Under the pieces are notes generated by a model, which was not told the origin of the DNA, did no database searches, and saw only the letters and a list, made by a program, of their open reading frames with translations. Source: Limnomonas spitsbergensis (taxonomy: Eukaryota > Chlorophyta > Chlorophyceae > Chlamydomonadales). From it: DNA of 64,000 bases. Position 1 is the first letter of the stretch, and each line of letters opens with the position of its first letter. Position numbers and translations under genes: made by a program. Positions 5,451 to 64,000 of this stretch are shown in pieces. The stretch is from assembly GCA_037349105.1 (NCBI GenBank), contig JAYJMM010000119.1:5715001-5779000 (forward strand), in the 5' to 3' direction.

Positions 5451-8400
5451 CTGTACTGGATCCAGCACCTTCTTCTCCAGACCCAGGATCTGCTTGCCGA
5501 GCTTGGCAGTGCCCTCAACCAGGCTGCCGCCCTGTTCACATGAGGGATCCAGGTTTTATGATATAGAGTTAGGTTTGTAACGTGGGGTTTGGTCTCAAGC
5601 CCAAGCCTTTAGCAAGTGCCCTCCAACAGGCTGTCATCAGATTCAGGGTTCAGGATTTAGGCTTTTAGTTATGACGCATGGTTCAAGGTGGAGCACACAC
5701 CCTGAACAAGTGCCATTAACATCTCCTGCCCTGTGACCCTGTGAGCAATTGTTCAAGGTAATATCGTTGTACAAGGTAATATCGTTGTACAAGGTAATAT
5801 CGTTGAGCATTGTACAAGGTGAAATCGTTGTCGGCCAAACAGGACTGCGTTCTACTGGCGGGAAGGTAGTCCAAAAGGCCTGATATATTATATGGTGGGT
5901 GTGCCAGCCAGCTGGGCCAGCGCAGGGGGGAGGGAGCGGCACGCACGCACCCAGGCCGATACCAGGGCCGGGCATGGGGGATGGGGGGAGGCGAGGTTCA
6001 CACACATTCAAACTCTCCACATGACATCAACACCGGCAGCGGCGCACTGACAGATCACCTTGGAGGCTTCGGCATTATAACTCAGGGCGTCAAGGCGACG
6101 AGGTAGCTCTATGTCCCACAGTCTGGCCAAGAGAAGATGAGGAGGGTGACTGGGGAGGTCCGAGAATCATCGAGAGCAGTGTTAACACCAGCAAAGTGTG
6201 CACACAGCCCGGACCTGCGACATGTGAAGTGTGAACACAGCCCATACCTGCAACGGCGCCAGCGAGCGCCAGGCGGGGTTCTCGGCCAGCTCGCCCTCAC
6301 CCTGGAGGAAAAGCAGCAGCTCCTGGGGAGCGGGGGGGCAGCGGGAGATAAGCCGGGTGTGCATGAGTGGAGGTGGGGGTGAGGCAGCCTACGTTCAACA
6401 GCCGATTGGTCAGGTAGCGCTCTTAGCAACAGCAGCAGGAGGAGATCTACCGGTATTTAAATATCGAACAGTTCAATATCTAAACAATGCATCGTGGCCC
6501 CGCGCACTTTAGACGGGTGACCGGCCAGTGTGCTAGGGTAGCGCTCCTCTTATCCTTTCCCCCATCCGTCCTATGCTCCTCCCTTGCTTCGTGGTATTGC
6601 CCAGTGTGCTGCCAGTGTGGCCAGGTACAAATCCCCCCCTCCCCTCATCCGCCCCGCCCACCCCCTCCCTTATCTGTTGCCTGCCCACCTTGCTACACTT
6701 CTGCCGGGTGTGCTGCCAGTGTGGTCAGGTGGCAGTCCCCCCCCCCCCACTCATCTGCCGCATAGCCATTTTATTACATGATTTTTCTGACTGTGCTGCC
6801 AGTGTGGTCAGGTAGAAGTTCCCCCCCCTCATCTGCCACATGCCCACCACACTACGTGATGTTGCCGATGTCAGTGAGGCCACGCCCTCCCCCCCGCCAC
6901 CTCCTCCTCATTCCTCTCCCCCATCCAACGTTACCAGCTCCCATCTCGCTACGTGATATTGCCGGGTGAGCTGTCAGTGAGGCCACGCCCCCCTCTCCCC
7001 TGACCCCTCCTCCATCCCATGTTACCAGCTCCCATCTCGCTACGTGATATTGCCGGGTGAGCTGTCAGTGAGGCCACGCCCCCCTCTCCCCTGACCCCTC
7101 CCCCATCCAACGTTACCAGCTCCCATCTCGCTACGTGATATTGCCGGGTGAGCTGTCAGTGAGGCCACGCCCCCCTCTCCCCTGACCCCTCCCCCATCCA
7201 ACGTTACCAGCTCCCATCTCGCTACGTGATATTGCCGGGTGAGCTGTCAGTGAGGCCACGCCCCCCTCTCCCCTGACCCCTCCTGCATCCCATGTTACCA
7301 GCTCCCATCTCGCTACGTGATATTGCCGGGTGAGCTGTCAGTGAGGCCACGCCCCCCTCTCCCCTGACCCCTCCTCCATCCCATGTTACCAGCTCCCATC
7401 TCGCTACGTGATATTGCCGGGTGAGCTGTCAGTGAGGCCACGCCCCCCTCTCCCCTGACCCCTCCTCCATCCCATGTTACCAGCTCCCACCTCGCTACGT
7501 GATATTGCCGGGTGAGCTGTCAGTGAGGCCACGCCCCCCTCTCCCCTGACCCCTCCTCCATCCCATGTTACCAGCTCCCATCTCGCTACGTGATATTGCC
7601 GGGTGAGCTGTCAGTGAGGCCACGCCCCCCTCTCCCCTGACCCCTCCTCCATCCCATGTTACCAGCTCCCACCTCGCTACGTGATATTGCCGGGTGAGCT
7701 GTCAGTGAGGCTAGGTAGCGTTCTAGGGATATCCGTCGGTCCTCCACAAACGTGTCGGCCATGCGCTGACCCTCCACAGCATTTTTCTCCGGCCGCGGGG
7801 GGATGAAGTAGCCACGATATCTGTTGGTGGGGGGGGGGTATACGGTAATGATGCAGTCACAAAGACCGAGGTGGAGTCGGGATAAGGGGGGGTGAGCAGG
7901 ATTAGGGGAGTAAGGGATGAAGTAGCCACGATATATGTTGGTGGGGGGGGGGGTATACGGTAATGATGCAGTCACAAAGACCGAGGTGGAGTCGGGATAA
8001 GGGGGGGTGAGCAGGATCAGGGGAGTAAGGGATGAAGTAGCCACGATATATGTTGGTGGGGGGGGGGGGTATACGGTAATCACGCAGTCACAATGACCGA
8101 GGTGGAGACAGGATGAAGGGGGGGTGAGCAAGATCAGGGGAGTAAGGGATGAAGTAGCCACGATATCTGTTGGGGGGGGGGTATACGGTAATAACACAGT
8201 AACAATGACCGAGACTATCAAAAAAGGCTTTTTCCTGTTATAAGATTGACATAATATTTAGAGAAAGTTGAAATTGACATTTTAAACTAATATTTTTAAA
8301 CAGATTAATGTTTTTGCAATTGTATATTTTAATAATTTACCTTTTTTATTTAATCGTTTTGTTAAGTGGTCCTCTGCCCCCTGACCTGCTTTGCTCTGCT

Positions 8401-10571
8401 CTGCTAAGGGAAAGACTTCCCCTAGCAGAGCAGGGCAAAGCATGTAGAGGCTTTTTTTTTACTTGTATGCCTGAGGTCAAAAAGCGAATAGAGAGGTGGA
8501 GACATGATGAGGGGGGGTGAGCAGGATCAGGGGAGTAAGGGGTGAAGTAGCCACGATATCTGTTGGTGGTGGTGGGGGTATACGGTAATGACGCAGTCAC
8601 AATGACCGAGGTGGAGACAGGATGAAGGGGGGGTGAGCAGGATCAGGGGAGTAAGGGATGAAGTAGCCACGATATCTTCTGGTGGTGGGGGGGGTATACG
8701 GTAATGACGCAGTCACAATGACCGAGGGGGAGACAGGATGAGGGGGGTGAGCAGGATCAGGGGAGTAAGGGATGAAGTAGCCTGTCGACTGTCGTGTCAA
8801 TGCAACTGGTTGGAGTTCGACTCCCAGTGATACCGGTTGCTGAGATCCCATGAGGGATGAAAAGGGTGGCTCTGGACCTACGAGATGTCTCCGTCTCAGT
8901 AAATAAAGGATGGGGGATGGCAAACCTCGGGTATTTCCGGGTGCCGGCAAGCCGCACACGTGTTAGATGGTAGGTTACCCAGTGCTACGGCCGAACGGGT
9001 GCCTTCCTTCATCCACGCCTTAGGGTGTATATCTTTCTTTCTTTTTTAGCCACAATACTCGGGGGTGGGGGAAGGGATGAGGGGGGGAGGAGAAGGACTG
9101 AGGAGTAGGGGGAAGAAAGTATCCACAACAACTGAGGGGGGGGGGGAGATGGGTGTGTGGGAGGGGGGGGGGGGGGGAGAGCAGGACTGTGAAGTAAGGG
9201 ATGCAGTAGACGCAATACCTGCATGGCCAAAAAGCGAATGCCAGCTATTAATAGGCTAGGGTTCAGTAACCGGACTTCAAAAGTGCTGAGTGGCATATGG
9301 GGCGAGTATTGCTTCACACACCACCTGACTTTCAACGCATCCGCCAGGGCCACGAAGTCACGGAAGCGGCGGCGGACGTGCGCTACTGGCTTCGACAGCA
9401 GCGCCCCAGGTGTCTGGCTGGACGACGACGACCCCGCTCCCTCGCTGCTGCTGCGCCCGGCAGCGCCTGCGGTGCCGCCTGCACCCCTGCCAGCCTCCGT
9501 GCTCGTCACGAGGTACGCGACGTAACTGGCCTTGATGCCGAACAGGCCCGCCAGCTCCTTCTTAACGGGGTCTGTGACCGTCACGCGCAGCGGAGCCTCA
9601 CGCTGGCTCTTGCGGGGCAGGAAAGCTGCGGATCCGGCGGCAGAGCCGGCAGAGGGGGATGTCGGCAGCCCACCCTGCTGCTGCTGTTGCAGTGGCGGCG
9701 GCGACGACGGCGGGGCGTTGGAATAATGCAGTTTGGTCCCGGAGCCTCCGTCTGCCCGGAGCTTCACCTCCGTACTGGGGTCGTTTTCTCCGGAGTAGCC
9801 CTCGGAGCGCCTCGCATACCTGTTCATCGTCCCATCGTGGCCGCTGCCGCTCCCGTCGGCGGCGTAGTAATTGTTGTGGCCGCTGGAGGAGGGCAGGTTG
9901 CTGGGCCCTGCCGCCGCCGCTGCTGTCGCTTTCGTCGCATAGCTAATGTCGGACAAGGGATCCGAGGAGGTTCCGGAGCCCAAGGCAAGCGCCTTGAAGG
10001 CGGACGGAGGCGAGGAGCGGGCCAGCGGGTCAGCTTCACTGAGCCCTGAGTCCGGGTATGGCGGCGGTGGCGGCATGAGCTGCCCGTAGGTGACGCCGGG
10101 GTGGTGGCTGTGGTCTTCCCGGCTGTAGTCGTCCTCGTGAGCGCTGGCGCTGAGGGGGTCGTGGACGTCGCCAGCAGGGCTATCAGCAGGGCCAAGTACA
10201 AGGCTGGCAGCATTGGCGTCCTTAGGCCCGGCGGAGGGGCAGGGCGTAGGGCTGGGCACAGGTGCATCAGCAACATTTCCAGGTGGGCTTTCAGATGTCT
10301 CAGCGCTGCCTCCTCCTGGCGCGAGCAGGACAGCAGCACCCGACGAGGACCGAGGTATCGCGCCTGGCTGGCCGGTTGACGCGGAGGTTGAGGGCAGCGG
10401 CGCCTTGTCCGCTGCAATGACCCGCCCTCCTGCGTTCGCCGACGAACTGAACTCGGAAGTGTCGCCTAGACCTATTTCGTCCTCATCGCCCTCCCAGCCA
10501 GGTGCATGGGCGTTCAGGGCGCTGTCCAGCTGGGCCGTGAGATCCTCCATGCCCTGTGTCGCATGCCACAT
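5451..10571 (-). CDS. SNX2: SNX1/SNX2-type sorting nexin with PX domain (3' end beyond left edge)
   Basis: Endosomal sorting protein that would bind PI3P on endosomes through its PX domain. The minus-strand exons join in phase: 10571-9325, 7820-7673, 6322-6248, 5531-5451 (517 codons in view). Residues 1-327 are Ser/Pro/Ala-rich and disordered. The PX domain spans about 328-478, starting LRVTVTDP. It has the basic RRRFRDF motif, then across the exon 1/2 junction YRGYFIPPRPEK, then VEDRRISLERYLASLTAHP, then ELLLFLQ. An insert of about 40 residues rich in Gly and Ser sits before RRRFRDF. Exon 4 (SLVEGTAKLGKQILGLEKK) matches the linker after PX in plant SNX2 proteins. The BAR coiled coil is missing from the window and presumably lies left of the 19-bp array. 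A second Met at 10550 (MEDLTAQ) could be the real start. Splice edges of exons 2, 3 and 4 are tandemly duplicated. Confidence 0.85.
5608..5640 (-). repeat. Copy of SNX exon 4 acceptor edge
   Basis: AAGTGCCCTCCAACAGGCTG at 5610 mirrors GCAGTGCCCTCAACCAGGCTG at the acceptor side of exon 4 (5507-5531), about 100 bp away on the intron side. A more degenerate trace follows near 5706. Confidence 0.6.
6200..6226 (-). repeat. Copy of SNX exon 3 donor edge
   Basis: ACAGCCCGGACCTGCGAC at 6203 copies ACAGCCCATACCTGCAAC, the junction of exon 3 at 6248, about 36 bp away. On the minus strand both read GCAG followed by GT, so the copy keeps a potential donor. Confidence 0.55.
6490..7672 (-). repeat. 91-bp array copying the SNX exon 2 donor edge
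   Basis: GCCGGGTGAGCTGTCAGTGAG occurs at 6961, 7052, 7143, 7234, 7325, 7416, 7507, 7598 and, inside the real exon, 7689. The period is exactly 91 bp. Each unit carries the last ~35 bp of exon 2 plus the donor and ~55 bp of intron. Older copies continue left: near 6862, 6790, 6695 and 6600 the same core survives with more substitutions (for example TGCCGGGTGTGCTGCCAGTG). Seven of the eight regular copies have AT in place of the donor GT; the copy at about 7480-7495 keeps GT like the true site (7672-7671). Confidence 0.92.
7806..8786 (-). repeat. ~115-bp array copying the SNX exon 2 acceptor edge
   Basis: AAGTAGCCACGATAT begins at 7806 (real exon), 7920, 8035, 8152, about 8546 and 8663, with a truncated copy at about 8773. 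Each unit has the first ~20 bp of exon 2 (encoding YRGYFIP), the acceptor and ~90 bp of upstream intron, including GTATACGGTAAT and CAATGACCGAGG. The array is interrupted by an AT-rich insert (8212-8495). Confidence 0.9.
8212..8495. mobile_element. AT-rich insert with a GC-rich hairpin
   Basis: It splits the 115-bp array between ATGACCGAG and AGGTGGAGAC. The first ~155 bp are strongly AT-rich, unlike the surroundings. They are followed by a large imperfect inverted repeat: TGCTTTGCTCTGCTCTGCTA (8387) against TAGCAGAGCAGGGCAAAGCA (8423-8442), with outer CCTCT/AGAGG pairing. No clear target-site duplication was found. It could be a MITE or a piece of organelle DNA; organelle genomes of several volvocalean algae carry such palindromes in AT-rich sequence. 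Confidence 0.5.
8966..9030. repeat. Dispersed 65-bp repeat, copy 1
   Basis: ATGGTAGGTTACCCAGTGCT and the following CGGCCGAACGGGTG and ATCCACGCC blocks recur at 61668-61732 with few substitutions, 52 kb away. Probably a fragment of a dispersed transposable element. A Pol III B-box-like GGAGTTCGACTCC lies upstream at 8810. Confidence 0.65.
9031..9324. other. SNX intron 1, G-rich low-complexity part
   Basis: Intron sequence between SNX exons 1 and 2 with long G-runs (9062-9180) and no coding signal. Confidence 0.5.
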
Positions 10572-11437: not shown

Positions 11438-14400
11438 ATGGCTGATGCTCATCTGGTGGGCGAACATCTTCTATCTCCTCTTGCTTTCCCTGTGATTGCC
11501 CATTTGTTGACATTACGTCGTTGAACAGGATAAAAGCTTGGATGCTTTGATTGAAGAGAACAGAAACAAGGTTGGGAAGAAGGGAAGATCTGGTATCAAG
11601 GTTGGCACCTCTGCCGCAGCAGCGAACAGGCGTAGCGGAAAGCCTAAAGGTCAGAGAGGCCAGGGGAAGCCTCCGGGTGGAAATCAAAAGCAGCAGCCGC
11701 AGCAGCAACACCCTACGAAGCAGGAGCGCGCACCTCTTGCGCTAGGCGTTCGGGGAAGGAAGATCGGCAAGGGTTCCGAGGGGCGACGGGCAGGACGACA
11801 GGCCGCTGCTTTCCCACCGGTTTGTACCCCGACCAATACTAGCCTGCATGGCATCCAGCCTTGCAAGCCTCATGGGATGGACACCCCCCATGACATGGGC
11901 CCTTTTTCACTGAAATTACGTGCCATTCCAAGTATCAGGTTAACAGAACCATGTCCTCTCTAGACGAGACTACGAGTGTTACGTGTCAGGCGTTGCTGAG
12001 CCATGTTGAATGATTTCATGAGTGCTGTCTAGGGCCCTCAATGTCTGCACCTACATGCGGCTGAGGTATTGCCCGCTCCCATGCCTGCCTTGCAGGGCCC
12101 TTGGGGTCCGCCCCCCTTCATGGGACACATGCCTCCGTTTGGAATGCCACCGTTCATGCATCCAGGCATGATGCCTCCCGGCTACCCCGCTGGGATGCAT
12201 CCTTCGGAGGCAGGCGGCGGCAGGCTCGCCCGGCAGGCCAGGGCTTCTGGTGCTGCAGGGCCCGGACCCCGCATGGAGCACCGGGATGCTGACAGGGATG
12301 TCAAGTGGGTGAACGACAGGTTTGACGCTTCAGAGGGCGCCCCCCCTCGGAGGAGGCTGGCCCTGCCAGGCGCGTCGTCAGCGGAGCCCGGGAGCCAGCT
12401 GTAAGTTGGAGGGATGTGCTGACTGCCATGTACCATGCACCATGCCCCACCATGCTCCATGCTCCATGTCCATTGCCCCCAGGCCCCAGCTCCAAATCCC
12501 ATGCGCAGACGAGATGTCATAGATTGTGTGGAAATGGATCGTTGGCGGTTTGTTTGGTGGCTAGCAGCGCATTGTTTGGGGGGGGGGGGATTCGAATGGA
12601 CATCGGCCACAACGGGCGGTCCCGTGCTTTTTGGCCTGATGGCATGCTCCCTTAATGCAAGCCCTACTTCTGCCCATGCCTGTCTGTTTGTCTGCGTTCA
12701 TCTATTGGACTTCTTGAACAGCCACTACATATGATCTCTGGTCCCCTGCTCTGTGACCTTATGGAAGGCTCCCTTTATGAACGCCCCACCTGAAGCGTTC
12801 TTACCATTGCTGTGCCTATCACGGTTCTTACGGTGGCTGAATTACGTAGCTGAGTTTCAGTCACCATAATTTCAAGGCAATTTTAGTTACTGTTACCAGG
12901 AAGGGAGCATAGGTACTCCTACGATGTATGAATCACTGCGCAATTGCACTGCACTGGTTCTTACTCATGAGACCATAGGATCCAGATGGAGTCAACGTCT
13001 TCTAGGTATCGTCTTATAGGTTATTGGGATTGTTACACCACCAGTCACCAGTGTTCATTATATTGCGCACGCTATGTCACCTTCAGCTGGCCGTGGTGGG
13101 CAGCTACTCCTGGGACAATGGAGACAGAAGCATAGGACGCATCCTAAAGTCGATGGCCCAAGCAGCAGATATTCATGAACGCACTTTTCCATGTCTCCTT
13201 TCGCGGGCGGTGATGTAGCTGAGTCGTAGCTGAAACATCGAAAACAAACAGCCCCCACTCCCCTGCTAGCCTATGTATCTGGCCTGCAGTTTAGGGTTAT
13301 GGTTTAACTCCTAACCCTACCCCCCTCCCCTTGCTTGCCTGTGCATCCACCCTGCGGTTGAGGGTTATGGCTTAACCCTGAACCCTACCCCCCCTCCCCT
13401 TGCTTGTCTGTGCATCCACCCCGTGGTTCCTGTTGTGTCCGCCTTGCCGTATCTTGCTCCCGCAGTGTTGAGAGGACCACTGATCCTGTGAACCTGCTTT
13501 CGCCACGCAGGCTGATTAGCAACCTCCACTATAATGTCACGGACTCGGACATCAGGGTGAGGGATCAGGACAGGGAGGAGGGGGAAGGGATGTCTGGGTG
13601 AGGGATCAGGACAGGGGGGGAGGGACGTCTGGGTGAGGGACCTGAAGGCTGGGCTTGATGCTGTGGCTGTGAGCCCTCTGACTGAAATCCTGTTCACTAT
13701 CTGGTCCCAGTGATGTTATCTAGCCTCTATATCTAGTTATAAGTGTATAAGTGTCAGTGTATTGGTACCTTCTTGCCTCTGAAAGTGTGAATATAAGTGT
13801 GAAGTGTGAAAGCTAGGCACAGCCGCGGTGGGTCGAATGTGGGGGGAGAGTGTACCCCCCTCTTCTTTGTCTTTTCACGCCATGATGTCCCCTGCCCTGT
13901 CATCTCATCCCATGTCGACATGCATGGTCTCCCTGCAGGAGCTCTTCTCAACAGTGGGGGACCTCGTCAAGTCACAAATCGATTTTGACGACGGGTGAGA
14001 GGCCTTGAGATGCTCTTGAGATGAGAGGGTGACATGTTTTGTTTGATAAGCAGCAGCGGGAATCTAGCTAGGTCCAGGCCTGCGGCTGAGGGATCCTTCT
14101 GCTGGGGGGGCCACCGGCCGAAGATAGGGCCTGGTGGGTTCCCAATTGGCCCAGTAGTGGCAGAGCCCCGCAAAGCCCCAAATTTGTATTGTGTCAAAAA
14201 AACAAAAAAAATCAATGAATGCTTGGTCACAAAAAGCCACCCTCTGTGGTCTCAAAAGTCCATGTCTGTTTGCTCGCAATCCTTGATCCCAGCCGCACGT
14301 TACAAAAAACTACAATTTCACCGATCCACACCCTCATCCAATGCAAACCTGTACCTCTGTCAGCTTGCTTGTTTGATTTTGTGCCACAGTGGCGGCTGGT

Positions 14401-16673
14401 CCGTGGGCATGTCCGCTGTTGTCTCGGAGGTTCAGCTCTGAACTTGTGTTTGTTATTGCGCAGCGACGGCCGGTCCATGGGCACGGCCACTGTCATCTTC
14501 AAGCGCAGCGCTGACGCCAAGAAGGCGATCGAGCAGTACAATGGCATCGCGCTGGACGGCAAGAAGCTGGACATCTCTCTGGTGGACTCGCAGCCACAGG
14601 GGATGCGGCTGTCATCCGGTGTCAGGTGAGGCTGTGAGGATGAAGGTGGGGTATGCAGCCACCGGGGATGCGGCTGTCATCCGGTGTCAGGTGGGGCTGT
14701 GAGGATGAAGGGGAGGTGTGCAGCCACAGTGGATGCGGCTGTCATCCGGTGTCAGGTGAGGCTGTGAGGATGAAGGTTGGGTATGCAGCCACAGTGGATG
14801 CGGCTGTCATCCGGTGTCAGGTGGGGCTGTGAGGATGAAAGGGGGGTATGCCGCCACAGGGGATGCGGCTGTCATCCGGTGTCAGGTGGGGCTGCGAGGA
14901 TGACGGGGGGGCGAGGGGAAGGATGGCTAAATGTTGGTCATCAGTCTGGTGGACTCGCAGTCACAGGGGATGCGGCTGTCATCCAGTGTCAGGTGAGGCT
15001 GTGAGGATGACGGGGGGGCGAGGGGAAGGATGGCTAAAACTTGGTCATCTCACGGGTGGACTCGCAGCCACAGAGTATGCGGCTGTCATCCCGTGTCAGT
15101 TGGGGCTGTGAGGATGACGGGGGGGGTGGGGGGGTATGCAGCCACAGGGGATGCGGCTGTCATCCGGTGTCAGGTGGGGCTGTGTGGATGACAGGGGGGG
15201 CGAGGGGAAGGATGGCTAAGAGTGACAGCTATATACATTGTGGCTGCATTTCCACCAGATTGATATCCAATTATCTACCAGATATCAATCTGCTAGATAT
15301 GCTGCCACAATTAATATGGCTGTCACCGGGCGTTAGGTGGCGCCTGAATGTGAAAAAGGGAAGTGGCAGAGGTGTGACTGGTGTGAATGATAATAGTGGC
15401 AGGGTAGGCGCTTGTCACCAGGAGTCTGGTGGGGTTGAGGGGCCGAATGGGGGGAGTGGCAGGGATGTGTTTGATTTGACGCTGAATCACCCTAAACAAG
15501 AGTGATCTGCTCCTCGTGGATGCACCCCACTCACAAGAAAGGTTACCGCTCTTCTGTCCCGCACCTTGCCACTTTCCCTGACCCGTCTTGACCCCTTGAC
15601 GCCTTCCACGCTCCATGTCCCATGCCCCCAGCTCCAAACCCTTAACCCTTAACCCTGCCTCTGATACCTGTCCTTTGATTTGCGAAGGGTGACCATGGAG
15701 GGAGGTGCCAAGCGCGCGCCAGCGGCCCAGGGCAGTCGGGCTGCAGCTCCCGCTGCTGCCAGCGGTAGCGAGCGGATGTTCAGGAGCGCGCTTCCCAGGT
15801 GGGGTCGATGGCACGGGCTCTGTTTCTTTTAGTGTGCTTCTGCTACAATTCAGCTGACACTGGCCAGTGTTTCTTTTTCGTGACTCAGCTACATGTCAGC
15901 TACACTGCGGCCTCCGGCCGGAGTCCCCATTTGTGATCAGCCCTACTGCTTGGGCTGCCAGCCGTAGGCCTGTCCAGGTTCGGTCCCAATCGGGCCTTTG
16001 GCGGCTGCGGGGCTGCCTGCCAACGGTACATTTTTAGCCGGAAAAGAAACAAAACACTGGCTATGATGCATTTGTAGCTGGTGTCGCCCAATCACGATAT
16101 CCCCGACCCAGATGGAACCAAACCCTAAACCCCAAGCCCGAATCCTTAAACCCAAACCCCATTTTGCCTGCGTAGGGGTATGGGCGGCGATGGTGGCGGC
16201 CACCCGGCCAGTGGGGTGAGGAGGCCGGCGGGCGGGGCGAGGATCCGGAGCAGTGTGGTGAGTGTGACTGTACCGCCATGGTAGCACAAATCGGCCGAAC
16301 CTGTGCCGTATCCGGCGTATTGTGCTGTACTGTGGCACTATGGTAGTACAATCCGGCCGAACCTGTGCCGTATTGCGCCGTATCATGCTACCATTTGTAC
16401 CGCGGGGCACCTGTATTGAGCACCCTGCACAGGACTATTGGAGGTCCTATGTGCCTATGTCTGTACTGCACGACATAGACATTTGACTCAATGGCTTTTG
16501 CTACCTTGAGACTCATCATGCCGCGTTATTGCAATGCACTGGACACGCTGGCTCTGTCCGTGCGCCCTAGATATCTGTATGTGAGAAGGGAATCTGGGGC
16601 AATGTGTATCTCGTCACCCCCTCACCTGATGTGGTTCCGCATGCAGGTTGTCCACGACGAGATGCAGGAGTGA
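11438..16673 (+). CDS. ALY: ALY/ALYREF mRNA-export adaptor
   Basis: Nuclear RRM protein that links spliced, capped mRNA to the export machinery through UAP56 and NXF1-type partners. Exons: 11438-11455, 11529-11819, 12096-12400, 13466-13556, 13939-13994, 14464-14625, 15688-15798, 16176-16257, 16647-16673; all phases agree, giving 380 aa. The N-terminus has the UAP56-binding motif ([12 protein letters not shown]), then a basic region. Exon 3 encodes an unusual Met/Pro/Gly-rich segment ([20 protein letters not shown]). The RRM starts [15 protein letters not shown] (RNP2) and has [18 protein letters not shown] and [10 protein letters not shown] (RNP1), ending [12 protein letters not shown]. The tail is Gly/Arg-rich and ends VVHDEMQE; the usual C-terminal UAP56 motif is not evident. 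The exon 2 donor (CCG|GTTTGT) is the least certain junction. It converges with SERRATE. Confidence 0.88.
13556..13645 (+). repeat. Short repeat after ALY exon 4 donor
   Basis: GGGTGAGGGATCAGGACAGG, the donor side of exon 4, recurs at about 13596 and partly at 13630. This is a minor example of junction-spanning duplication. Confidence 0.6.
14082..14165 (+). repeat. Dispersed CAGCTAC-family element, partial copy
   Basis: CTGCTGGGGGGGCCACCGGC, then CGAAG and GGTTCCCAATTGGCCC, match the central part of the element seen at 15893-16031 and (inverted) 54871-55000. It lies in ALY intron 5. Confidence 0.5.
14626..15345 (+). repeat. Array copying the ALY exon 6 donor edge
   Basis: GGATGCGGCTGTCATCCGGTGTCAG followed by GTGAGG or GTGGGG ends exon 6 at 14625. 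It recurs with starts near 14654, 14719, 14784, 14849, 14957, 15066 and 15138. Period is about 65 bp, then about 108 bp. The 14957 and 15066 copies contain more exon, including GTGGACTCGCAG. A degraded copy is visible at 15300-15340. Every clear copy keeps the donor GT. Confidence 0.9.
15893..16031 (+). mobile_element. Dispersed CAGCTAC-family element, near-complete copy
   Basis: It starts with two CAGCTACA motifs, has CGGCCTCCGGCCGGAG, then GCTTGGGC, and ends in CAATCGGGCCTTTGGCGGCTGC. The same order in reverse complement occurs at 54871-55000. No protein is encoded, so this is probably a non-autonomous element. It sits in ALY intron 7. Confidence 0.6.
16265..16405 (+). repeat. Dispersed GGCCGAACCTGTGCCGTAT repeat, tandem pair
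   Basis: CATGGTAGCACAAATCGGCC and GAACCTGTGCCGTATCCGGC are followed by a second copy about 60 bp later. Related tandem copies occur at 21655-21775. It sits in the last ALY intron. Confidence 0.6.
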
Positions 16674-51200: not shown

Positions 51201-54200
51201 CCCCTGGTGATACCCCTGGTGATACCCCTGGTGATACCCTGGTGATACCCTGGTGATACCCTGGTGATACCCCTGGTGATACCCCTGGTGATACCCCTGG
51301 TGATACCCTGGTGATACCCTGGTGATACCCCTGGTGATACCCTGGTGATACCCCTGGTGATACCCCTGGTGATACCCCTGGTGATACCCTGGTGATACCC
51401 CTGGTGATACCCTGGTGATACCCTGGTGATACCCCTGGTGATACCCTGGTGATACCCCTGGTGATACCCTGGTGATACCCTGGTGATACCCTGGTGATAC
51501 CCTGGTGATACCCTGGTGATACCCCTGGTGATACCCCTGGTGATACCCTGGTGATACCCTGGTGATACCCTGGTGATACCCTGGTGATACCCCTGGTGAT
51601 ACCCTGGTGATACCCTGGTGATACCCTGGTGATACCCTGGTGATACCCCTGGTGATACCCTGGTGATACCCTGGTGATACCCTGGTGATACCCCTGGTGA
51701 TACCCCTGGTGATACCCTGGTGATACCCTGGTGATACCCTGGTGATACCCCTGGTGATACCCCTGGTGATACCCTGGTGATACCCTGGTGATACCCTGGT
51801 GATACCCTGGTGATACCCCTGGTGATACCCCTGGTGATACCCTGGTGATACCCTGGTGATACCCTGGTGATACCCTGGTGATACCCCTGGTGATACCCCT
51901 GGTGATACCCTGGTGATACCCTGGTGATACCCCTGGTGATACCCCTGGTGATACCCCTGGTGATACCCTGGTGATACCCTGGTGATACCCCTGGTGATAC
52001 CCTGGTGATACCCTGGTGATACCCTGGTGATACCCTGGAGATACCCCTGGTGATACCCCTGGTGATACCCTGGTGATACCCTGGTGATACCCTGGTGATA
52101 CCCTGGTGATACCCTGGTGATACCCTGGTGATACCCTGGTGATACCCTGGTGATACCCTGGTGATACCCTGGTGATACCCTGGTGATACCCCTGGTGATA
52201 CCCTGGTGATACCCTGGTGATACCCTGGTGATACCCTGGTGATACCCTGGTGATACCCTGGTGATACCCTGGTGATACCCTGGTGATACCCTGGTGATAC
52301 CCCTGGTGATACCCCTGGTGATACCCTGGTGATACCCTGGTGATACCCCTGGTGATACCCTGGTGATACCCTGGTGATACCCTGGTGATACCCTGGTGAT
52401 ACCCTGGTGATACCCTGGTGATACCCTGGTGATACCCCTGGTGATACCCTGGTGATACCCTGGTGATACCCTGGTGATACCCTGGTGATACCCTGGTGAT
52501 ACCCTGGTGATACCCTGGTGATACCCCTGGTGATACCCCTGGTGATACCCTGGTGATACCCTGGTGATACCCCTGGTGATACCCTGGTGATACCCTGGTG
52601 ATACCCTGGTGATACCCTGGTGATACCCCTGGTGATACCCTGGTGATACCCTGGTGATACCCCTGGTGATACCCTGGTGATACCCTGGTGATACCCCTGG
52701 TGATACCCCTGGTGATACCCCTGGTGATACCCCTGGTGATACCCTGGTGATACCCCTGGTGATACCCTGGTGATACCCCTGGTGATACCCTGGTGATACC
52801 CTGGTGATACCCTGGTGATACCCTGGTGATACCCTGGTGATACCCTGGTGATACCCTGGTGATACCCTGGTGATACCCTGGTGATACCCTGGTGATACCC
52901 TGGTGATACCTCTGGTGATACCCTGGTGATACCCTGGTGATACCCTGGTGATACCCTGGTGATACCCTGGTGATACCCTGGTGACACCCTGGTGATACCC
53001 TGGTGATACCCTGGTACTACCCTGGTGATACAATCACTTTGGTTGAAGAAAATTGAAGAAAACGCAGAACATGGTGATTTAACTTTGGTTGAAGGATTTG
53101 GCCTCTTTTTACGGGTGATTAAGCTTTGGTTTCATTTTTTTCACATCATGGTTCTCACTAAATTTACTTGAGGCAGCGCCTCAGGGGGTCAAGAATACTG
53201 TGCAGTTGTTCTCCGCTCATCTTTCTGACGTTGCTGCAGCGTTGATGCAAGTATGCAACCACCCTAGAGCCTTTCTAGAAAGCACCAGGCAAGGCCAACC
53301 TTTGGGAAAGCTAGAAAGAGAAGCTGAACATAACATCCTAAAACAGTTTATGGCGGGTTCAGGGTTTTGAGGTCAAAAATCGCGGTGATTCGCTTTGTTT
53401 AAAGGTTTTCGCTGCATTTTCCTTTGTCCTACATTTGGTTATTCGTATAACCTAAGTGTATTACCAATTCATTGTGTCACTACGGTACGCAGGTGGTGCG
53501 CGGCAGCTGGACCGGCGATTATCAACTGGCAGGCCACCAGAAGCCTGTGGTTGCGGCCCGCTTCAGCCCAAAGCTGATGCACAAGCGGGGGGACCCGAAA
53601 GGCGAGGAGGCAAGTGTAGGCTTCTCAGCGCGCCCTTTGCCCTAAAACCTGCACCCTGAATTCCAGTAGATGCACAGGTTGAGGGCGGGCGTAGAGGGGA
53701 TACGGGTGGAGGGGGGTGAACTGCATGTTCCGCGTGTTTACTGGTCTTGGGGTGCCTAAAAGTAAAATGAAGGTGAAACTGTCCAGGTATTCCAACTACA
53801 CCTCAGCTATTTCACAGTTTACAGCCGGGGCCCCGGTGCTGCAAGCCGTTGGCCCCCGACACAAACACGCCTTGATCACTGGCAAGGAGTGGTCCTGCTG
53901 CCCTGACGGTGGTCTCACTGCACATGTCAACGGTGGTCCTGCCGCCCTGACCGTGTCCTGCTCCTTACGCTCCTCTGTGATTTCGCTGCCTTGACTGTGT
54001 CCTGACCGCAGTTGACAACAGTGGTCGCCCTGGCCAGCACTGACCGGACCTTCAGCATCTGGGTGCGAGGCGAGCCCAAACCTATCGTCTACATAGACAC
54101 CAAGGACAGGTGCGTTCGCACATGTTTGGCTATCCACACTTATGAGTGTGTCCACTCTTGAAAAGCGCCCATCGCATTTGCAGACAGCGGGATAGATGAG

Positions 54201-57200: not shown

Positions 57201-60200
57201 ATACAGGTGTTTCAAAATACAGGTGTTTCAAAATACAGGTACAGGTGTTTCAAAATACAGGTGTTTCAAAATACAGGTACAGGTGTTTCAAAATACAGGT
57301 GTTTCAAAATACAGGTGTTTCAAAATACAGGTGTTTCAAAATACAGGTGTTTCAAAATACAGGTACAGGTGTTTCAAAATACAGGTACAGGTGTTTCAAA
57401 ATACAGGTACAGGTGTTTCAAAATACAGGTACAGGTGTTTCAAAATACAGGTGTTTCAAAATACAGGTACAGGTGTTTCAAAATACAGGTACAGGTGTTT
57501 CAAAGTACAGGTGTTTCAAAAAGATGCACCCATGTAAGAGTAAAGAGTCATGCTCCCTCTGGCAATTTGGCATTCTCAAGTCCTGCTATGGTACCTAGTA
57601 TTTGAATTGTATGCTCTCACGTGTGAATGAACTGCTCATTCTCATGCTGCCTTCGGGATACAAAACGACCAAAAATCTCCATTTCTGATTGAAAGTTTGT
57701 GTTGAAGATCGACATTGTACCGGTTTGTCGTATTCCACCCCACATATTATGAATTTATGTGGGAAAGCGAAGATCACCCACACTTAGTGCTTCGGATGTT
57801 GCAGTTAGTGTGTTTCATGAGTCTTAACTGTCAGGTTCAGAGCAGTGGTATCCTGGCACACTTCAGCTACACTTCAGCTACAGCCGAAGCCCAGCCTGCA
57901 GCCAGGGGCTCTTGTGCAGCGTGCTTAGGGCCACCGTCCATATGCCTGTTAAGGGTTTGTCCCTGTAGGCCCAGCAGAGGCTGCCAAAGGGTCACAGCAG
58001 TGGCTGCCCAGTGGTCCCCGAAGGTGGTACGGTTTGCATTTTTGAAATATCGCTTGCTCAGAGATGAGCTCAGTGATTGGATGTGTGTGTTTTGTTTCTA
58101 TTTTTTGGGAGATCTTGTATTGTCCCTCCAGATTTCGTGTTTGTATGTGACAGTCTGCACGTCCATCAAACACAACAAGGCCAGCTGTGTAAAGCGGGTT
58201 TAGGGTTTAGGAAGCTCAATCGTTTTGTAGGTTTCAGGGTTTTTGGAGCCCTACCCTTGACCAGCTGTGTAAAGCAGGTGCGGATGGCTGCAACTGTGTC
58301 CGTGTGTGTATGAACGCGCAGGCCGCACTGCGTCAGACAGCGAGACCCGTGACCTCATCAGCATGCTGTTCCGAGGCAACACCGTCGGGGCCGTGAGCTG
58401 CAGCCTGACGCCCAGCATAGAGGCCGCCACGCTGCACAGGCAGGCTCATCAGGATGCAGTGCCACCCAGTGCAGCCACTACCCAGCCAGCAGGAGCTGCT
58501 GCAGCCACAGGTGCGCCACCCCGGGCCGCGGCGGCGCCCAGCAGCGCCCCTAGGCGAGTGCAGCCCATCCCCGTCGATCGCCCAGGCGCACCTGCGGTAG
58601 CTGCTGCTGCGGGGGCGGCGGCCACCGCGCCAGCTGCAGCGGCCCCGGCAGGAGCTGCGAGGCGCGTGACGCCGATTCCAGTTGGGAGCACACCTGGCGC
58701 TGATGCAGGCCCTTCGGCCGCCTCGCTGGCCACGGCGGCAGCTGACCGGCCATTGATGAACGGGAGCCCGGCCAAAAGGGCCGCAGCAGGCAGCGGCAGC
58801 CTGGTCAATCCGCCCCCTGCCAAGCGCATGGCCCTCGCGCCGATACAGCAGCAGCAGGCTGCACCACAAGCGCAAGTGAGAGCGACTGCGGGGGCTGTAC
58901 CGGCGACAGCGGGGCAGGCCCCGCGGCAGCAGCAGCAGCAGCAGCCCCTGCTGCCTGCGCCGCCACTGCTCACGCATTCGCAGCACACCGTGGCTCTGCC
59001 GACAGTTGCGGCGGCGGCGAGGGGCGTTACCGGGAACATGACGCTGTCTGCAGAGTGTGTGAGGCGAGGCGCGCCGGGGGGGGGCCCGTTCGTTGCTGTG
59101 GTGCGGTGCAGCCAGGGTGGGGAGCTTCTGTGGGCGGATGAGCTGCCAGGTCGAGTGTCCCTCATGCGCGGGACCTCGCGGTTCCTGGCGGTGGCAATGA
59201 GCTCGGGAGACGTGCAGGTGGGTGGGTGGGAGGCTGGTGGCATACTGGCATGGAAGGGGTGCGTATTCTATCTCCTGAGGGATGCTTGCCAGACAGGCTC
59301 AGGGGGGGGGATGTGCAGGTAGGTGAATGGGGGCTCGGATGGGTATTAATGCTCCAATAGTGCAGGTGCTTGATGGGTGGCGAGGATGGGTATCGGTGAT
59401 TTTGCAGGATTCAACAATTTCTGGATCAGGGTCCTTAAGTGCCACCCCATATTGTTTCCTTGGGAGACGTGTGTGTTGGTGGATGGATGGATGGGTGGGA
59501 CGTTGTCCTTAAATCCGGCCAGGTTGTACGCGGCACAGACTGTGCTGTGGTGAGGTTGAGCTGTGTGTGCAGAGCCAACCGGCCAGGTGCAGACCAGGTG
59601 TACATCAGGCGACATCTGGATCCGATCAGGCAGGATTGGGCGAATCAGGTCATGCAGTATCAGGCATCAAGGATCTGATAGCATGGCGGAACAGGCTGCA
59701 TCTGTTTGTGAGTAGCTGGTGATCGCATGGTGCCTCCAGCCCAGATCCATGCTTGGAGTTTCCTTTAACCTTAAACCCAGATTTCTCCTTAACCCGAAAC
59801 CCAGAAGCCCAGATCCATGGTTTACTTGTTGGTTGAGGTAAAATTGAGGTAAGGGTACCGAGTTTGGGGCTGTGGTCACGTTTAATCTTCAATCTGGTGG
59901 TTTAATCATGAACTCTGTAGCAAGGGTTATAAGGTTCAGGTATGAAGTCCTCTGTCCCCCGACCCGCTGCCTCCACCACCTGCAGATCTACAGCCATGCT
60001 GCATCATTTAATCATTAGCCTGGTGGTAAATATAGTTATGTCGTGAGGGTTTTGGTTCAGGTCTGAAGTCCTCTGTGACTCTGTCCCTCGACCCCGCTGC
60101 CTCCACCTCCTGCAGATCTACAGCCACGCCGGCCGACGGCTCATGCCCACCATTCCCCTGGGATGTGCCGTCTCCCACATGGAAGTTGAAAACAGGAGCG

Positions 60201-63200
60201 CGGGCAGCGTCTCTGCAGAAGCTGGTTGGAAGCTGCTGATCGTGACCGTGGATGGGCGGCTGTGTCTTTGGGACCTGCGGCTGCGGAGCTGCTTGGCGGA
60301 GGGGAGCCTTTCGCCGCTGCTGGCTTTGTTACAGCCTGCCATGAGGGGTGAGGGTTATGCAGGGCTGACAATGGAACTATAAACAACATGGAACCGGGAA
60401 CCCTGCACCCCAAACCCGTGCCGCAGCCCACCGTAAGAGGCGAGGGCGCTCCATACCCCTTAAACTCCTGCAGCCGTAAACCCTACTCCACGGCCTTCTA
60501 TGACCTGAAGCCCTGCACTTTGAACCCCATGTGGGAGCCCACTGGGTCGGGGTCACTACGTAAGATGGGCAGACCTTTTTCTTTCGTCACTCACCGTGCT
60601 CTGGGGGCAGGTATCTTAATACGAATTTTGAAAAATACGAATTTGAAATTTTTGAATAAACAATTAAAGACCATGATTTGAAATCAAGTCAGTTGCAGTG
60701 TCTAGCCAATAACGCACTTTTGGAAAGACAGGTGCGTTCCGTATGTGGTGTATGGAAGTGGCGCTTGACAGCAAGTATCCGACGGTAGGGTGGCAACGGA
60801 CGAATACAAAACACGTGGGAGTGTTATCTCACAGGCACTGTACTGCCAGAACTTACATAAGAGTGTTATCTCACAGGCACTGTACTGCCAGAACTTACAT
60901 AAGAGTGTTATCTCACAGGCACTGTACTGCCAGAACTTACATAAGAGTGTTATCTCACAGGCACTGTACTGCCAGAACTTACATAAGAGTGTTATCTCAC
61001 AGGCACTGTACTGCCAGAACTTACATAAGAGTGTTATCTCACAGGCACTGTACTGCCAGAACTTACATAAGAGTGTTATCTCACAGGCACTGTACTGCCA
61101 GAACTTACATAAGAGTGTTATCTCACAGGCACTGTACTGCCAGAACTTACATAAGAGTGTTATCTCACAGGCACTGTACTGCCAGAACTTACATAAGAGT
61201 GTTATCTCACAGGCACTGTACTGCCAGAACTTACATAAGAGTGTTATCTCACAGGCACTGTACTGCCAGAACTTACATAAGAGTGTTATCTCACAGGCAC
61301 TGTACTGCCAGAACTTACATAAGAGTGTTATCTCACAGGCACTGTACTGCCAGAACTTACATAAGAGTGTTATCTCACAGGCACTGTACTGCCAGAACTT
61401 ACATAAGAGTGTTATCTCACAGGCACTGTACTGCCAGAACTTACATAAGAGTGTTATCTCACAGGCACTGTACTGCCAGAACTTACATAAGAGTGTTATC
61501 TCACAGGCACTGTACTGCCAGAACTTACATAAGAGTGTTATCTCACAGGCACTGTACTGCCAGAACTTACAAGAGAGTTTTACTCACAGGCACTGTACTG
61601 CCATAACTTACGTAAGAGTGTTATCTCACAGGCACTGTACTGCCAGAACTTCCTTACAGATCCCGTGTATGGTAGCTCACCTAGTGCTACGGCCGAACGG
61701 GTGGCTTCCTTAATCCACGCCTCAGGGCGTATCGTTTGCGGAGGCACCAGTATCCGAAGCCATGCCTGTCTCGTGTGCTGTACTGTTCTTTAAAGAAAGG
61801 AGGCTGAGCCTCCCACGGGGAGTCCAGGGACCAGCATGCACACGGTGGTGCAAGTGAAGGCAGATCACCCAAGCCCAAATCCTCCCCAAGCCCACAACGC
61901 TGCACAGCCGGCCCATCCGTGCAGCTTAACAACTGTCCACAAAACCTCATTTCACGGTGCTTCAGCTACACTTTAGCTACTTATAGATCCCGTGTACAAT
62001 TGGCGCATGTGAACATGCATCACAGCGTGGATTTTGAGTACAGGATCAGAGCGTCTTGGATGGGGATCAGGAAGGGCAGGGAGGGGTACCGACGACGGAG
62101 ACCAGCGACTGACACACACTACTCTTTTCTTTTGGCGCGGCTGCTGATTTAGCTGTGTCCTGGCCTCTGGCCGGAGACCCATGCGCGGTCGGCCGTGATG
62201 TCTGAAGTGTCTGAAGTCTTTGTGGCTTCGGCCCAGGCTGCGCTGTTTCCTGAACTCCCAAGCCCCACGCAGAGCGTAGCTTTCTTTCTTTTTGTGTCTG
62301 AAGGCCGGTCTGTTTGAACTCCCAAGCAGAGGCCCTTGGTGGATACTGGGGGGCCTGCCGAAGGTGGTCTGGTAGTTGGACAAATGACCATGTTCTGGAC
62401 ACTGCCGCCTCCCGGACATGGTCATTGGGGTTTAGGGTACACCCTAAACTATGACAAGGTCCTCGGGGGTGGCCTTTCAAAAAAGGCTATTGGTTGGTCC
62501 TATCAAAATGACTTTTGGGTGGGTCTTAAAAAAAGGCCGTTGTGCGGTCCTTTCAAAATGGCTATTGGGTGGTCCTTTCGAAAAAGGCCAACGTGCGGCC
62601 CTTTCGAGTAGGCCATTGGGTGCTCCTGTCTAAAATGGCCTCCGCCCATGTCTCACACTTTTTCCTTAATCCTGACGTCCATTGGGGCAGAGGTTTGCTT
62701 GCCTCTGACTTTTTCCTCCACATGCGCTGCCCAATGACGCCAGGTGGGACAATCGCTGATGCAGCGCGCGACATCATTTTCTGGTTTTCTCTCCCATTGT
62801 TCTTTGCCCAATCTCAGGGGTGCTATAGGGTTTGGGGTTTAGGGTTTAGGGTTTGGGGGCACACGCACATCCCTGAGCGTGATTCTGTTATGTTTACAAA
62901 TGCCAGGGAGCATCACATGAATTGCAGGGAGCAGGGGCCCACTACATGGTTGGGCCACACAAGTACATATTCATATCTGGTTCATTAGTCTGTTAGTCCA
63001 GGCCCCCACCCAATCGTTGCGATGCGCCTGAGCTCTACGGGCGTCCTTCTTCTCCCTCCACGATTTAATTGGGAACAAACCATACCCAGTTTCGCCCCCT
63101 TGGATTGCCCCCTAGGCCCCCACCCGATCGTTGCGGTGCGCCTGAGCTCTACGGGTGTCCCCCTGGTAGTTTTTGACGACCGGCGTGCTTTCCTGTACGA

Positions 63201-64000
63201 GGCCTCCATGCGTTGCTGGATGAAGGTGGCTGATGATGAGCTGCGGACATCTGTCCACTTCAGCACGGCGCCACCTCTAGCGCAGGGTGGGTGTGCAAAT
63301 GAAGGTTGGGAGGGTGTTATACCCTGCTGCAGGTATTATAACCTGAGGGCTGCAGGCTAGGCATCGGTGGCTGATCATAAGCTGGGAGGGTGTTATGCCC
63401 TGCCCTGCGAGGGTTGCAGGCTAAGGGCATTGGTGGTTGATGCGAAGCTGTGGGTTTGTGCCCTTTTCAGCACAGCACAATTTCTGGCGCAGGGTGCGTG
63501 CGAGGGGTTCAAGGTAGGGGTTGGTGGCTGACACCGTGTGATCGCCCAGTTCAGCGCATCTCCCCCTGTGGTGTAGGTACGAGGGGTGCAAGGTAGGGGT
63601 AAGTGGCAGACAATGCTCTGCGGGCCGATGCCTACTTCAGCACATCTCCACCTCTGGCTCTGCGTGAGTCAAGGGGGGGCAGGGCAGGGGTTTATGCCCT
63701 GACTCGCTGATTTAGGGTTGTTGTATTTTTATTTACATGGCTTGAGTTTCGAATGCAGGGGACCTGGACATGATCACACTTTTTAAAGCTCGGCAGGCGA
63801 CCTGGCCGTGGTTCTTGATTTAAAAAACTCTGCCAATGTTTCAAACGCAAGCAACCTTGTTGTCCTCGCTTTTTTGTTAAAACGTACCTTAGCTAGCGCT
63901 TCAAGCACTGGCAAGCTAAGTGTGCTTGTTTATTAAAGACGTAACTCAGCCTTTTGTTTTGCTTGCAGGCGACTTGGCTGTGTTGCAGCATGAGGCGTCC
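27206..64000 (+). CDS. HIRA: HIRA histone H3.3 chaperone (3' end beyond right edge)
   Basis: Subunit of the HIRA complex, which deposits histone H3.3 on chromatin independently of replication. Exons: 27206-27242, 27457-27895, 28343-28466, 29525-29650, 30030-30080, 53493-53615, 54012-54109, 55043-55155, 58322-59217, 60116-60347, 63116-63286, 63969 onward; all phases agree (814 codons). It opens MIVDKVPWITHN, like the plant and animal N-terminus, then WD repeats (IFSIDVDASGERVV, ASGSDDKLICVYE, SLDNLVIVWDAL, LGWSPDGQ, GHQKPVVAARFSPK, LAWMPDGLALFVCSKDGTV). The repeats run to about residue 370. Exon 9 encodes an Ala/Pro/Gln-rich linker with two RRVxPIPV motifs (about residues 448 and 484), where human HIRA has its ASF1-binding B domain. 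The C-terminal HIRA domain follows (GELLWADELPGRV, IYSHAGRRLMP, VDGRLCLWDLR, GVPLVVFDDRRAFLY, GDLAVLQHEAS). Intron 5 is 23.4 kb. Confidence 0.92.
28128..28283 (+). repeat. Copy of HIRA exon 3 acceptor edge
   Basis: CACTGGACACCCTGGTCACT and GTGTGGGACATGGCCACCAG (28223 on) copy the exon 3 start CCTGGACAACCTGGTCATCG (28343 on). Upstream intron sequence (AGCACCATGCTGGCACGCCAAG at 28133 against 28283) is duplicated as well. The copy lacks a clean AG. Confidence 0.88.
28555..28690 (+). repeat. Dispersed CAGCTAC-family element, diverged copy
   Basis: Repeated CAGCTACAATTCAGCTAC (28494-28567) precedes CTGCTGCTCGGGCCAGTGGC and GGGTTTGGTCTCCATCGG, in the same order as the element at 15893-16031. Located in HIRA intron 3. 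Confidence 0.5.
28745..28790 (+). repeat. Copy of HIRA exon 3 donor edge
   Basis: TGAACAAGTGCCTGGCCAGC at 28762 mirrors TTCAACAAGTACCTGGCCAC at the end of exon 3 (28443-28462). It lies about 320 bp downstream, with the 28555-28690 element in between. Confidence 0.6.
29044..29500. repeat. 57/114-bp telomere-like array in HIRA intron 3
   Basis: GATCCCCTATCTTGACGG or its near match starts at 29071, 29185, 29299 and 29413, exactly 114 bp apart. Half-units (AGATCCTCATTCTTGACGG) give an inner period of about 57 bp. Units contain AACCCTAAACCC, like the complement of TTTAGGG telomere repeats. Confidence 0.9.
30081..30488 (+). other. 5' unique part of HIRA intron 5
   Basis: It starts with GTGAGG after exon 5. 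It has a GC-rich CGGCCGGGGCCTGAYCCG direct repeat (30117-30170) and otherwise unique sequence up to the array. Confidence 0.7.
30489..53031. repeat. 22.5-kb minisatellite of 11/12-bp units inside HIRA intron 5
   Basis: About 2,000 units of CCCTGGTGATA (11 bp) or CCCCTGGTGATA (12 bp). Rare variants act as landmarks: TATTACC, GATGATA, GATAACC, GGAGATA, GTGAGTGG, GACACCC, GGTGGTACC, CCTTGG, ACCATGG. These show nested segmental duplications (offsets of about 7,510, 5,470, 4,420 and 2,005 bp). On the plus strand the unit contains TGA and GT but no AG. On the minus strand no frame of the unit has a stop, which alone explains reading frames of up to about 6,900 codons. Confidence 0.97.
53032..53492 (+). 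other. 3' unique part of HIRA intron 5
   Basis: Relatively AT-rich sequence between the minisatellite and the acceptor TACGGTACGCAG (AG at 53491-53492). It includes two TTTGGTTGAAG repeats near 53037 and 53081. It supplies the branch point and polypyrimidine region for the 23.4-kb intron. Confidence 0.7.
54335..54640. repeat. 19-20-bp array in HIRA intron 7
   Basis: About 15 units of GGTCCCATGCTTGCATGCTT or the CTCGG variant. Each unit contains GCATGC and the quasi-palindrome CATGCTTGCATG. Both strands are open by composition only. Confidence 0.92.
54871..55000 (-). mobile_element. Dispersed CAGCTAC-family element, inverted copy
   Basis: In reverse complement it reads TTCAGCTACATTCCAGCTACA, CGGCCTCTGACCGGG, CTGCTTGGGCCACCGGCCGA and CCAATCGGGCCTTTGGCGGC. 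It is colinear with 15893-16031. It lies just before HIRA exon 8. Confidence 0.6.
55205..57520. repeat. 16/22-bp minisatellite in HIRA intron 8
   Basis: The unit is CAGGTGTTTCAAAATA (16 bp), optionally extended by a 6-bp ACAGGT to 22 bp. The two lengths are interspersed over 2.3 kb. Rare variants are AAAGTA, AACATA and AAATGC. All three plus frames stay open, giving apparent proteins of about 800 residues (VSKYRCFKIQVFQNTG), which are artefacts. Each unit contains CAG|GT. Confidence 0.96.
57521..58321 (+). other. 3' part of HIRA intron 8
   Basis: Mostly unique. A partial CAGCTAC-family element (CTTCAGCTACACTTCAGCTA, then GCTTAGGGCCACC and AGGCTGCCAAAGG) spans about 57860-57995. CCAGCTGTGTAAAGCRGGT occurs at 58181 and 58261, near the exon 9 acceptor. 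Confidence 0.6.
59925..60000 (+). repeat. Copy of HIRA exon 10 acceptor edge
   Basis: CTGCCTCCACCACCTGCAGATCTACAGCCATG (59968-59999) copies the junction at 60098-60129. Period is 130 bp. The AG, pyrimidine tract and first exon codons (IYSH) are all retained, together with upstream GAAGTCCTCTGT. Confidence 0.92.
60820..61660. repeat. 42-bp array in HIRA intron 10
   Basis: About 18 virtually identical units of GAGTGTTATCTCACAGGCAC followed by TGTACTGCCAGAACTTACATAA, then two diverged ones (61570-61650). The period is a multiple of 3, so two forward frames remain open (VISQALYCQNLHK); these are not genes. The near-perfect identity indicates recent expansion or homogenisation. Confidence 0.96.
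61668..61732. repeat. Dispersed 65-bp repeat, copy 2
   Basis: ATGGTAGCTCACCTAGTGCT, CGGCCGAACGGGTG and ATCCACGCC match 8966-9030. It directly follows the 42-bp array. Confidence 0.65.
62383..62426. other. Perfect 11-bp inverted repeat
   Basis: AATGACCATGT (62383-62393) and ACATGGTCATT (62416-62426) flank a 22-base GC-rich loop in HIRA intron 10. Confidence 0.7.
62466..62640. repeat. Degenerate ~38-bp tandem repeat
   Basis: About five units of the form GGYCNTTTCAAAANGGCYATTGGGTGGTCC in HIRA intron 10. Copies differ at many positions. Confidence 0.75.
62998..63046 (+). repeat. Copy of HIRA exon 11 acceptor edge
   Basis: CAGGCCCCCACCCAATCGTT (62999) and GCGCCTGAGCTCTACGGGCG copy the exon 11 start at 63116. 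Period is 114 bp. The AG and reading phase are kept for 15 codons (MRLSSTGV against VRLSSTGV), then the copy diverges. Confidence 0.92.
63287..63968 (+). other. HIRA intron 11 with degenerate repeats
   Basis: It begins with GTGGGT. Loosely repeated blocks (GGGTGTTATRCCCTGC at 63312 and 63388; CAGCRCATCTCC at 63554 and 63640) resemble the donor-side sequence TTCAGCACGGCG of exon 11. It ends at the acceptor GCTTGCAG. Confidence 0.6.
63750..63815 (+). repeat. Two copies of HIRA exon 12 acceptor edge
   Basis: GCAGGCGACCTGGCCGTGG (63793) and ATGCAGGGGACCTGGACATG (63754) resemble the true junction TTGCAGGCGACTTGGCTGTG (63964 on). Both keep AG. Confidence 0.7.

Follow-up and report, generated by a model that had tools for sequence, protein, structure and literature searches.

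Splice junctions copied into adjoining introns of Limnomonas spitsbergensis, seen against a high background of local direct copies

Tandem repeats near splice junctions in green algae and at exon-intron boundaries in human paralogs are already known, the former from passages of Zhao et al. (PMC3887541) and the latter from passages of PMC2812944. The first of these sources states that the density of tandem repeats in Chlamydomonas reinhardtii and Volvox carteri is higher close to intron-exon junctions, and that in C. reinhardtii such repeats make up 4.2% of the genome with microsatellites counted; the second describes internal tandem repeats at the boundaries of human paralogs. The algae of the core-Reinhardtinia have long introns (median 198-343 bp), and the passages of PMC8226300 that give these values leave the driver open. 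In a literature search that took in few subscription journals, none of the titles listed concerned junction duplication at the density described here, and passages of PMC6330051 do not bear on the matter.

We analyzed one stretch of 64,000 nucleotides (the 64-kb window, C119:5715001-5779000) together with a sample of 260 kb from outside it, drawn from 3 of the 124 contigs of this one 260-Mb genome. The gene identities given to the window by an initial annotation hold: searches of PDB sequences identify an SNX1-like gene (E 5.5e-18) and SERRATE (E 5e-24), both on the minus strand, and HIR1/HIRA (E 4.7e-41) on the plus strand, and the plus-strand RRM protein fits ALY (Pfam RRM_1, E 3.5e-17). The 55 exon edges of these four genes were set by GT/AG dinucleotides and open reading frame, and the single GC donor among them is apparently that of HIRA exon 6 (GAG/GCAAGT, 53605-53615). 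The donors of HIRA exons 10 and 11 were moved by one base, which keeps the frame; the unshifted donors were used in the first edge scores, in the shuffle calibration and in the comparison of 15 of 50 edges with intron interiors (below). HIRA spliced with the corrected donors aligns end to end with the HIRA of Chlamydomonas eustigma, the nearest HIRA protein found (51% across the whole query), with 432 of 863 positions identical and with gaps near three of 11 junctions (e1/e2, e7/e8 and e10/e11), the other eight being gap-free. The translated SERRATE, SNX and ALY RRM show no stops across their junctions. Rfam (gathering scores) and tRNA scans of the 64-kb window gave no matches.

Junction duplication at the exon edges of the window is real. 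Edges were scored with a match anchored on a 10-bp core at the junction, simple runs were down-weighted, and the cut-off was the 99th percentile of shuffled sequence (14.0-14.8 by search range). Copies all lie on the intron side because solely that side, close to each junction, was searched. Excluded from the count is the SNX exon 4 donor, whose match of 37.0 is a self-overlap at lag 16, which leaves 54 edges. A junction-spanning direct copy is present in the adjoining intron at 16 of these 54, where shuffles predict about 0.5; all 16 score above 14.8 and 14 of them above 20, with 42 copies altogether. The copies are head to tail, with TRF units of at least 10 bp at exon-intron boundaries that span the splice junction.

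The strongest edges are the SNX exon 2 donor, the ALY exon 6 donor, the SERRATE exon 8 donor and the SNX exon 2 acceptor. SNX1-like exon 2 (7673..7820, minus strand, assigned to the PX domain by reading frame and PDB homology) has both edges copied into the flanking introns. Its donor array (6916..7711, minus; TRF) has a 91-bp unit in 8.7 copies that includes the last 39 bp of the exon and the donor, and the edge search anchors 12 copies at +91 to +1179, the decayed ones deeper in the intron included. Its acceptor array (7800..8213, minus; TRF) has a unit of ~115 bp that holds the acceptor and the first 21 exonic bp, with copies at -114, -229 and -346, and the same unit recurs in a second cluster deeper in the intron (8493..8782, minus; TRF; copies at -739 and -855). 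The SNX exon 3 donor has a single copy at +33 (6194..6254, minus; score 16). On the plus strand, the ALY exon 4 donor lies in a ~41 bp unit with 2.5 copies (13547..13640; TRF; score 27), the ALY exon 6 acceptor is copied at -74 (14362..14514; score 24), and the ALY exon 6 donor is carried by arrays with 65-, 107- and 74-bp units (14590..15207; TRF), its eight copies running from +65 to +711, the last of them outside the array coordinates. In SERRATE, on the minus strand, the exon 8 donor has a 110-bp unit in 2.5 copies (22168..22446; TRF; scores 84 and 45), the exon 7 donor a copy at +101 (23173..23343; score 46), the exon 5 donor copies at +126 and +221 (24772..25058; scores 19 and 33) and the exon 4 acceptor a copy at -123 (25587..25777; score 42). 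In HIRA, on the plus strand, acceptor copies lie at -119 of exon 3 (28218..28392; score 22; AG lost in the copy), -88 of exon 7 (53897..54051; score 26; AG lost), -130 of exon 10 (59949..60129; score 36) and -114 of exon 11 (62997..63160; score 34); the exon 11 donor has decayed copies at +80, +207 and +377 (63227..63670; scores 21-25), and the exon 9 donor a marginal one at +257 (59202..59497; score 15.0). TRF also reports tandem arrays with 19-bp, 16/22-bp and 42-bp units at 2037-5428, 55212-57521 and 60819-61651, respectively, the latter two in HIRA introns.

About 15 duplicated exon edges had been claimed for these genes from inspection, and 11 of the 15 pass the cut-off: the SNX exon 2 donor and acceptor and exon 3 donor, the ALY exon 6 donor, the SERRATE exon 5, 7 and 8 donors and exon 4 acceptor, and the HIRA exon 3, 10 and 11 acceptors. 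The remaining four score below it (SERRATE exon 3 acceptor, 12.8; HIRA exon 12 acceptor, 13.0; SNX exon 4 acceptor, 11.0-13.0; HIRA exon 3 donor, 7.0-8.0) and have the appearance, by eye and unscored, of decayed or indel-bearing copies. Five edges that were not on that list pass too, namely the ALY exon 4 donor, the ALY exon 6 acceptor, the HIRA exon 7 acceptor and the HIRA exon 9 and 11 donors.

Are exon edges copied more often than the interiors of the same introns? In the window at a range of 1500 bp, 15 of 50 edges have copies and 17.5 are expected from the interiors, where 46% of positions are flagged when pooled and 35% when averaged by intron; at lags of 40-600 the values are 14 of 50 and 16.7 (P of at least 14 = 0.87). 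Edges at other loci are predicted ones, obtained with a simple gene finder, a hidden Markov model for which the four window genes served as training set, and wrongly predicted edges shift the edge rate toward background. Twenty other regions gave 13 of 42 predicted edges vs 13.1 expected (stricter set, 6 of 30 vs 8.4). A self-trained version of the finder, applied to 25 ten-kb stretches (22 blocks that overlap the twenty regions, one satellite stretch excluded), gave 13 of 62 vs 20.2 (P of at most 13 = 0.007), and its stricter sets gave 4 of 28 vs 6.6 and 12 of 48 vs 15.3. The window and other loci pooled have 27 of 112 edges with copies vs 36.9 expected, a comparison in which edge and interior positions are not independent because an array that starts at an edge flags interior positions close by as well. 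An edge excess over intron interiors was thus not found in the window and the 260-kb sample, and preferential duplication of exon edges is not supported. The initial annotation had reasoned that random minisatellites would not keep including exon ends, which the counts of 14 and 13 edges above do not support, and had named as its refutation a genome-wide scan in which edges are duplicated no more often than intron positions; the same comparison, run on the window and the 260-kb sample, finds edges duplicated no more often than interiors and perhaps less often.

The finder's performance can be judged as follows. With training on three genes and prediction around the fourth (1.5-kb flanks), 47 of the 55 known edges were recovered in a total of 75 predictions; at a stricter setting with tight spans and one gene left out, 36 of 55 were recovered among 41 predicted. 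The self-trained finder recovered 53 of 55 in the window among 124 predicted before filtering, the leave-one-out values covering the four-gene version only. Low-penalty settings were dropped for over-prediction. Eight hand-picked proteins (six predicted genes elsewhere, the HIRA C-terminus adjoining the window and the ALY RRM) each exceed the curated cut-off of a Pfam family, in the case of Hira barely, and one predicted kinase has an apparent splicing error.

Copies are common throughout the sampled DNA. In twenty regions on three contigs (19 spaced and one adjoining the window), a copy lies within 1.5 kb of 41% of positions on average, and TRF arrays with units of at least 15 bp cover 26% on average; the regional spread of local copies is 3% to 100%, with one region entirely satellite and two satellite-dominated. 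Direct copies outnumber inverted ones about sixfold (35% vs 6% at 3522 positions in 21 blocks), and a position picked arbitrarily has a direct copy nearby in about 35-41% of cases. The highest flagging rates (62-72%) are those of noncoding positions where GC exceeds 60%, and positions near a G/C run of at least six are flagged at 54% vs 35%, values from which no conclusion on G/C runs or GC-rich DNA is drawn because the cut-off is not GC-matched. Lags are flat from 20 to 140 bp in the 21 other blocks, so that a clustering of periods at 90-130 bp, as suggested for the window, is not a general property. The other suggestions about the process fare better: that it is recurrent agrees with the differing unit lengths at ALY exon 6 and the mixture of near-identical and decayed copies at SNX exon 2; that it lengthens introns and creates additional candidate splice sites agrees with the TRF arrays, the direct-copy background and the 42 edge copies; and the proposal that it is possibly genome-wide stands to the extent that it is observed across the sampled genome (the window, 20 regions and 21 blocks, on 3 of 124 contigs). 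The telomere-like word CCCTAAACC, considered like the G/C runs as a possible clue to mechanism, occurs 48 times vs 4.8 expected (about ten times over-represented, in 8 of 20 sequences). The word TGTAGCTGA, perhaps a dispersed element, is about 17 times over-represented and in 14 of 20 sequences. Both counts cover the window apart from its satellite, together with 18 stretches from the set L009-L028.

Because edges show no excess over interiors and the background is high, we favor, as very probably correct, a passive explanation in which genome-wide local tandem duplication simply overlaps splice junctions. Noncoding DNA would undergo frequent local tandem duplication of pieces of ~20 to 600 bp (the tested range), with breakpoints placed regardless of gene structure. 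A duplication wholly within an exon would usually damage the protein; one that straddles a junction would leave the exon and its adjoining splice site intact while the intron absorbs the extra copy, so that junction-straddling events would have almost the same chance of survival as those confined to introns. Successive rounds would build arrays, lengthen introns and leave donor and acceptor copies to decay as neutral sequence. At the DNA level the putative mechanism is replication slippage or template switching. Exon interiors also carry copies (16-21%), above the expectation if exon duplications were purged. In-frame tandem duplication within exons may occur too, since a predicted protein of stretch L018 contains a long coding repeat (GLAERGLAEKGQ...).

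A process targeted at exon edges, coupled for example to transcription, R-loops or splicing, might instead copy junctions into introns, and it would accommodate the 16 edges with copies (both edges of SNX exon 2, ALY exon 6 and HIRA exon 11 included), the three unit lengths at the ALY exon 6 donor, and the denser repeats near junctions that passages of PMC3887541 report for two green algae. We consider such targeting very unlikely, since neither the window nor the other blocks show an edge excess and there is no peak at distance zero. Among 104 predicted edges of the twenty regions the rate of copies climbs from exon into intron, being 14% at -60, 27% at 0, 33% at +100, 39% at +300, 48% at +600, 37% at +800 and 46% at +1000. 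TRF coverage of 55 introns points the same way, units of at least 10 bp covering 17% of the first and 11% of the last intron decile vs 18-24% of the middle six; units of 1-9 bp (~2% of sequence) increase toward the acceptor. At the present sample size, edge targeting is rejected on the window and other-region tests.

Selection could instead have retained the copied sites because they serve regulation, either as decoys or as alternative splice sites. In favor of this, GT is retained in seven of the eight ALY exon 6 copies and in both copies each at SERRATE exons 8 and 5, and the nearest donor copies are intact in eight of nine cases. Against it, GT/AG is intact in 28 of the 42 copies, as predicted from flank identity (0.67 expected; one array supplies 12 of the 31 donor copies, so that independence of the copies does not hold), GT is gone from nine of the 12 SNX exon 2 donor copies, and the nearest acceptors are intact in just four of seven cases. 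This pattern fits neutral decay and gives no sign of selection on decoys, which we judge a highly improbable cause. Under the passive explanation the spliced copy would be the exon-adjacent one, and that site appears to be chosen despite intact rivals 65-130 bp away, for example at ALY exon 6 and SERRATE exon 8.

A third possibility, the intron-gain model, is that introns were born by tandem duplication of an exon segment containing AG/GT and that the copies are relics of these births. Two introns resemble its prediction. HIRA intron 5 (30081..53492, plus strand; 23,412 bp) has donor and acceptor junctions that are alike, with a score of 15.0 that exceeds all 3660 mismatched donor-acceptor pairs, and SERRATE intron 4 scores 11, which 0.2% of mismatched pairs reach; a third, predicted, intron stands at 0.7%. 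The HIRA intron 5 resemblance is as expected if that intron was born by tandem duplication, and it is suggestive that one or two of the introns may have arisen so, with 61 introns tested. As a source of the edge copies, however, intron birth is most unlikely: just two of the 61 introns stand out, and the edge search found copies in neither. HIRA intron 5 is 23.4 kb because it contains a 22.5-kb satellite with an 11-bp unit (TGGTGATACCC, 30489-53031; TRF), for which the matches of a genome search, mostly at C124:826-827 kb, are diverged (82-84%, some lower). Finally, chance similarity of splice consensus sequences or low-complexity runs can be dismissed, for although short GT/AG matches and G or C runs are common in this DNA, such runs were given less weight, 99% of shuffled scores lie below the cut-off, many of the matches are 40-100 bp long, and chance is refuted for the 14 edges that score above 20.

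Passive local duplication bears also on intron length, the median of which is 645 bp in 26 window introns. The duplicated fraction increases with length (rho 0.39, P 0.003, 55 introns; 0.52 in 24 window introns and 0.35, P 0.054, in 31 predicted ones), a correlation that is partly mechanical because longer introns present more targets. Duplication would then be a main cause of long introns. We put forward only tentatively, as a possibility less likely than its negation, the broader picture in which ongoing local tandem duplication supplies most of the intron sequence, junctions are copied near the neutral rate, the exon-adjacent copy is chosen by position or exon definition and not by motif, and new introns such as HIRA intron 5 and SERRATE intron 4 occasionally arise. 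If duplicated donors and acceptors decay neutrally, the spliceosome would have to choose by position or exon definition in this way.

What appeared to be a mechanism acting on exon edges becomes a measurable neutral baseline: about one quarter of the sampled splice junctions are duplicated because the genome duplicates locally everywhere. The alga also offers a natural experiment on splice-site choice, as a single intron can contain as many as 12 copies of its donor. The tolerance of copied sites, the share of intron sequence built in this way and the possible intron births are of interest.

How do these observations compare with the systems described above? Like C. reinhardtii and V. carteri in the passages of PMC3887541, this is a green alga, probably of the same order, with repeats that are concentrated in introns and occur near junctions. 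Unlike the values in those passages, units of at least 10 bp cover a median of 28% here (23 blocks, other parameters), and such units are not denser at intron ends, the rise toward the acceptor being confined to units of 1-9 bp. As in the human paralogs of PMC2812944, going by the passages cited, the units reach across exon-intron boundaries and are a potential source of new splice sites; the paralogs stem from recent gene duplications and their new introns are documented by RNA, whereas the algal cases are four unrelated genes and predicted genes known from DNA alone. Splice sites are involved here as in intron gain by tandem genomic duplication (PMC4974935 and PMC2891723), but most of the algal copies lie inside an existing intron and resemble one end only. 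The core-Reinhardtinia medians of 198-343 bp in the cited part of PMC8226300 compare with 645 bp here, and for the long introns of those related algae local duplication is a candidate cause that is concrete and testable.
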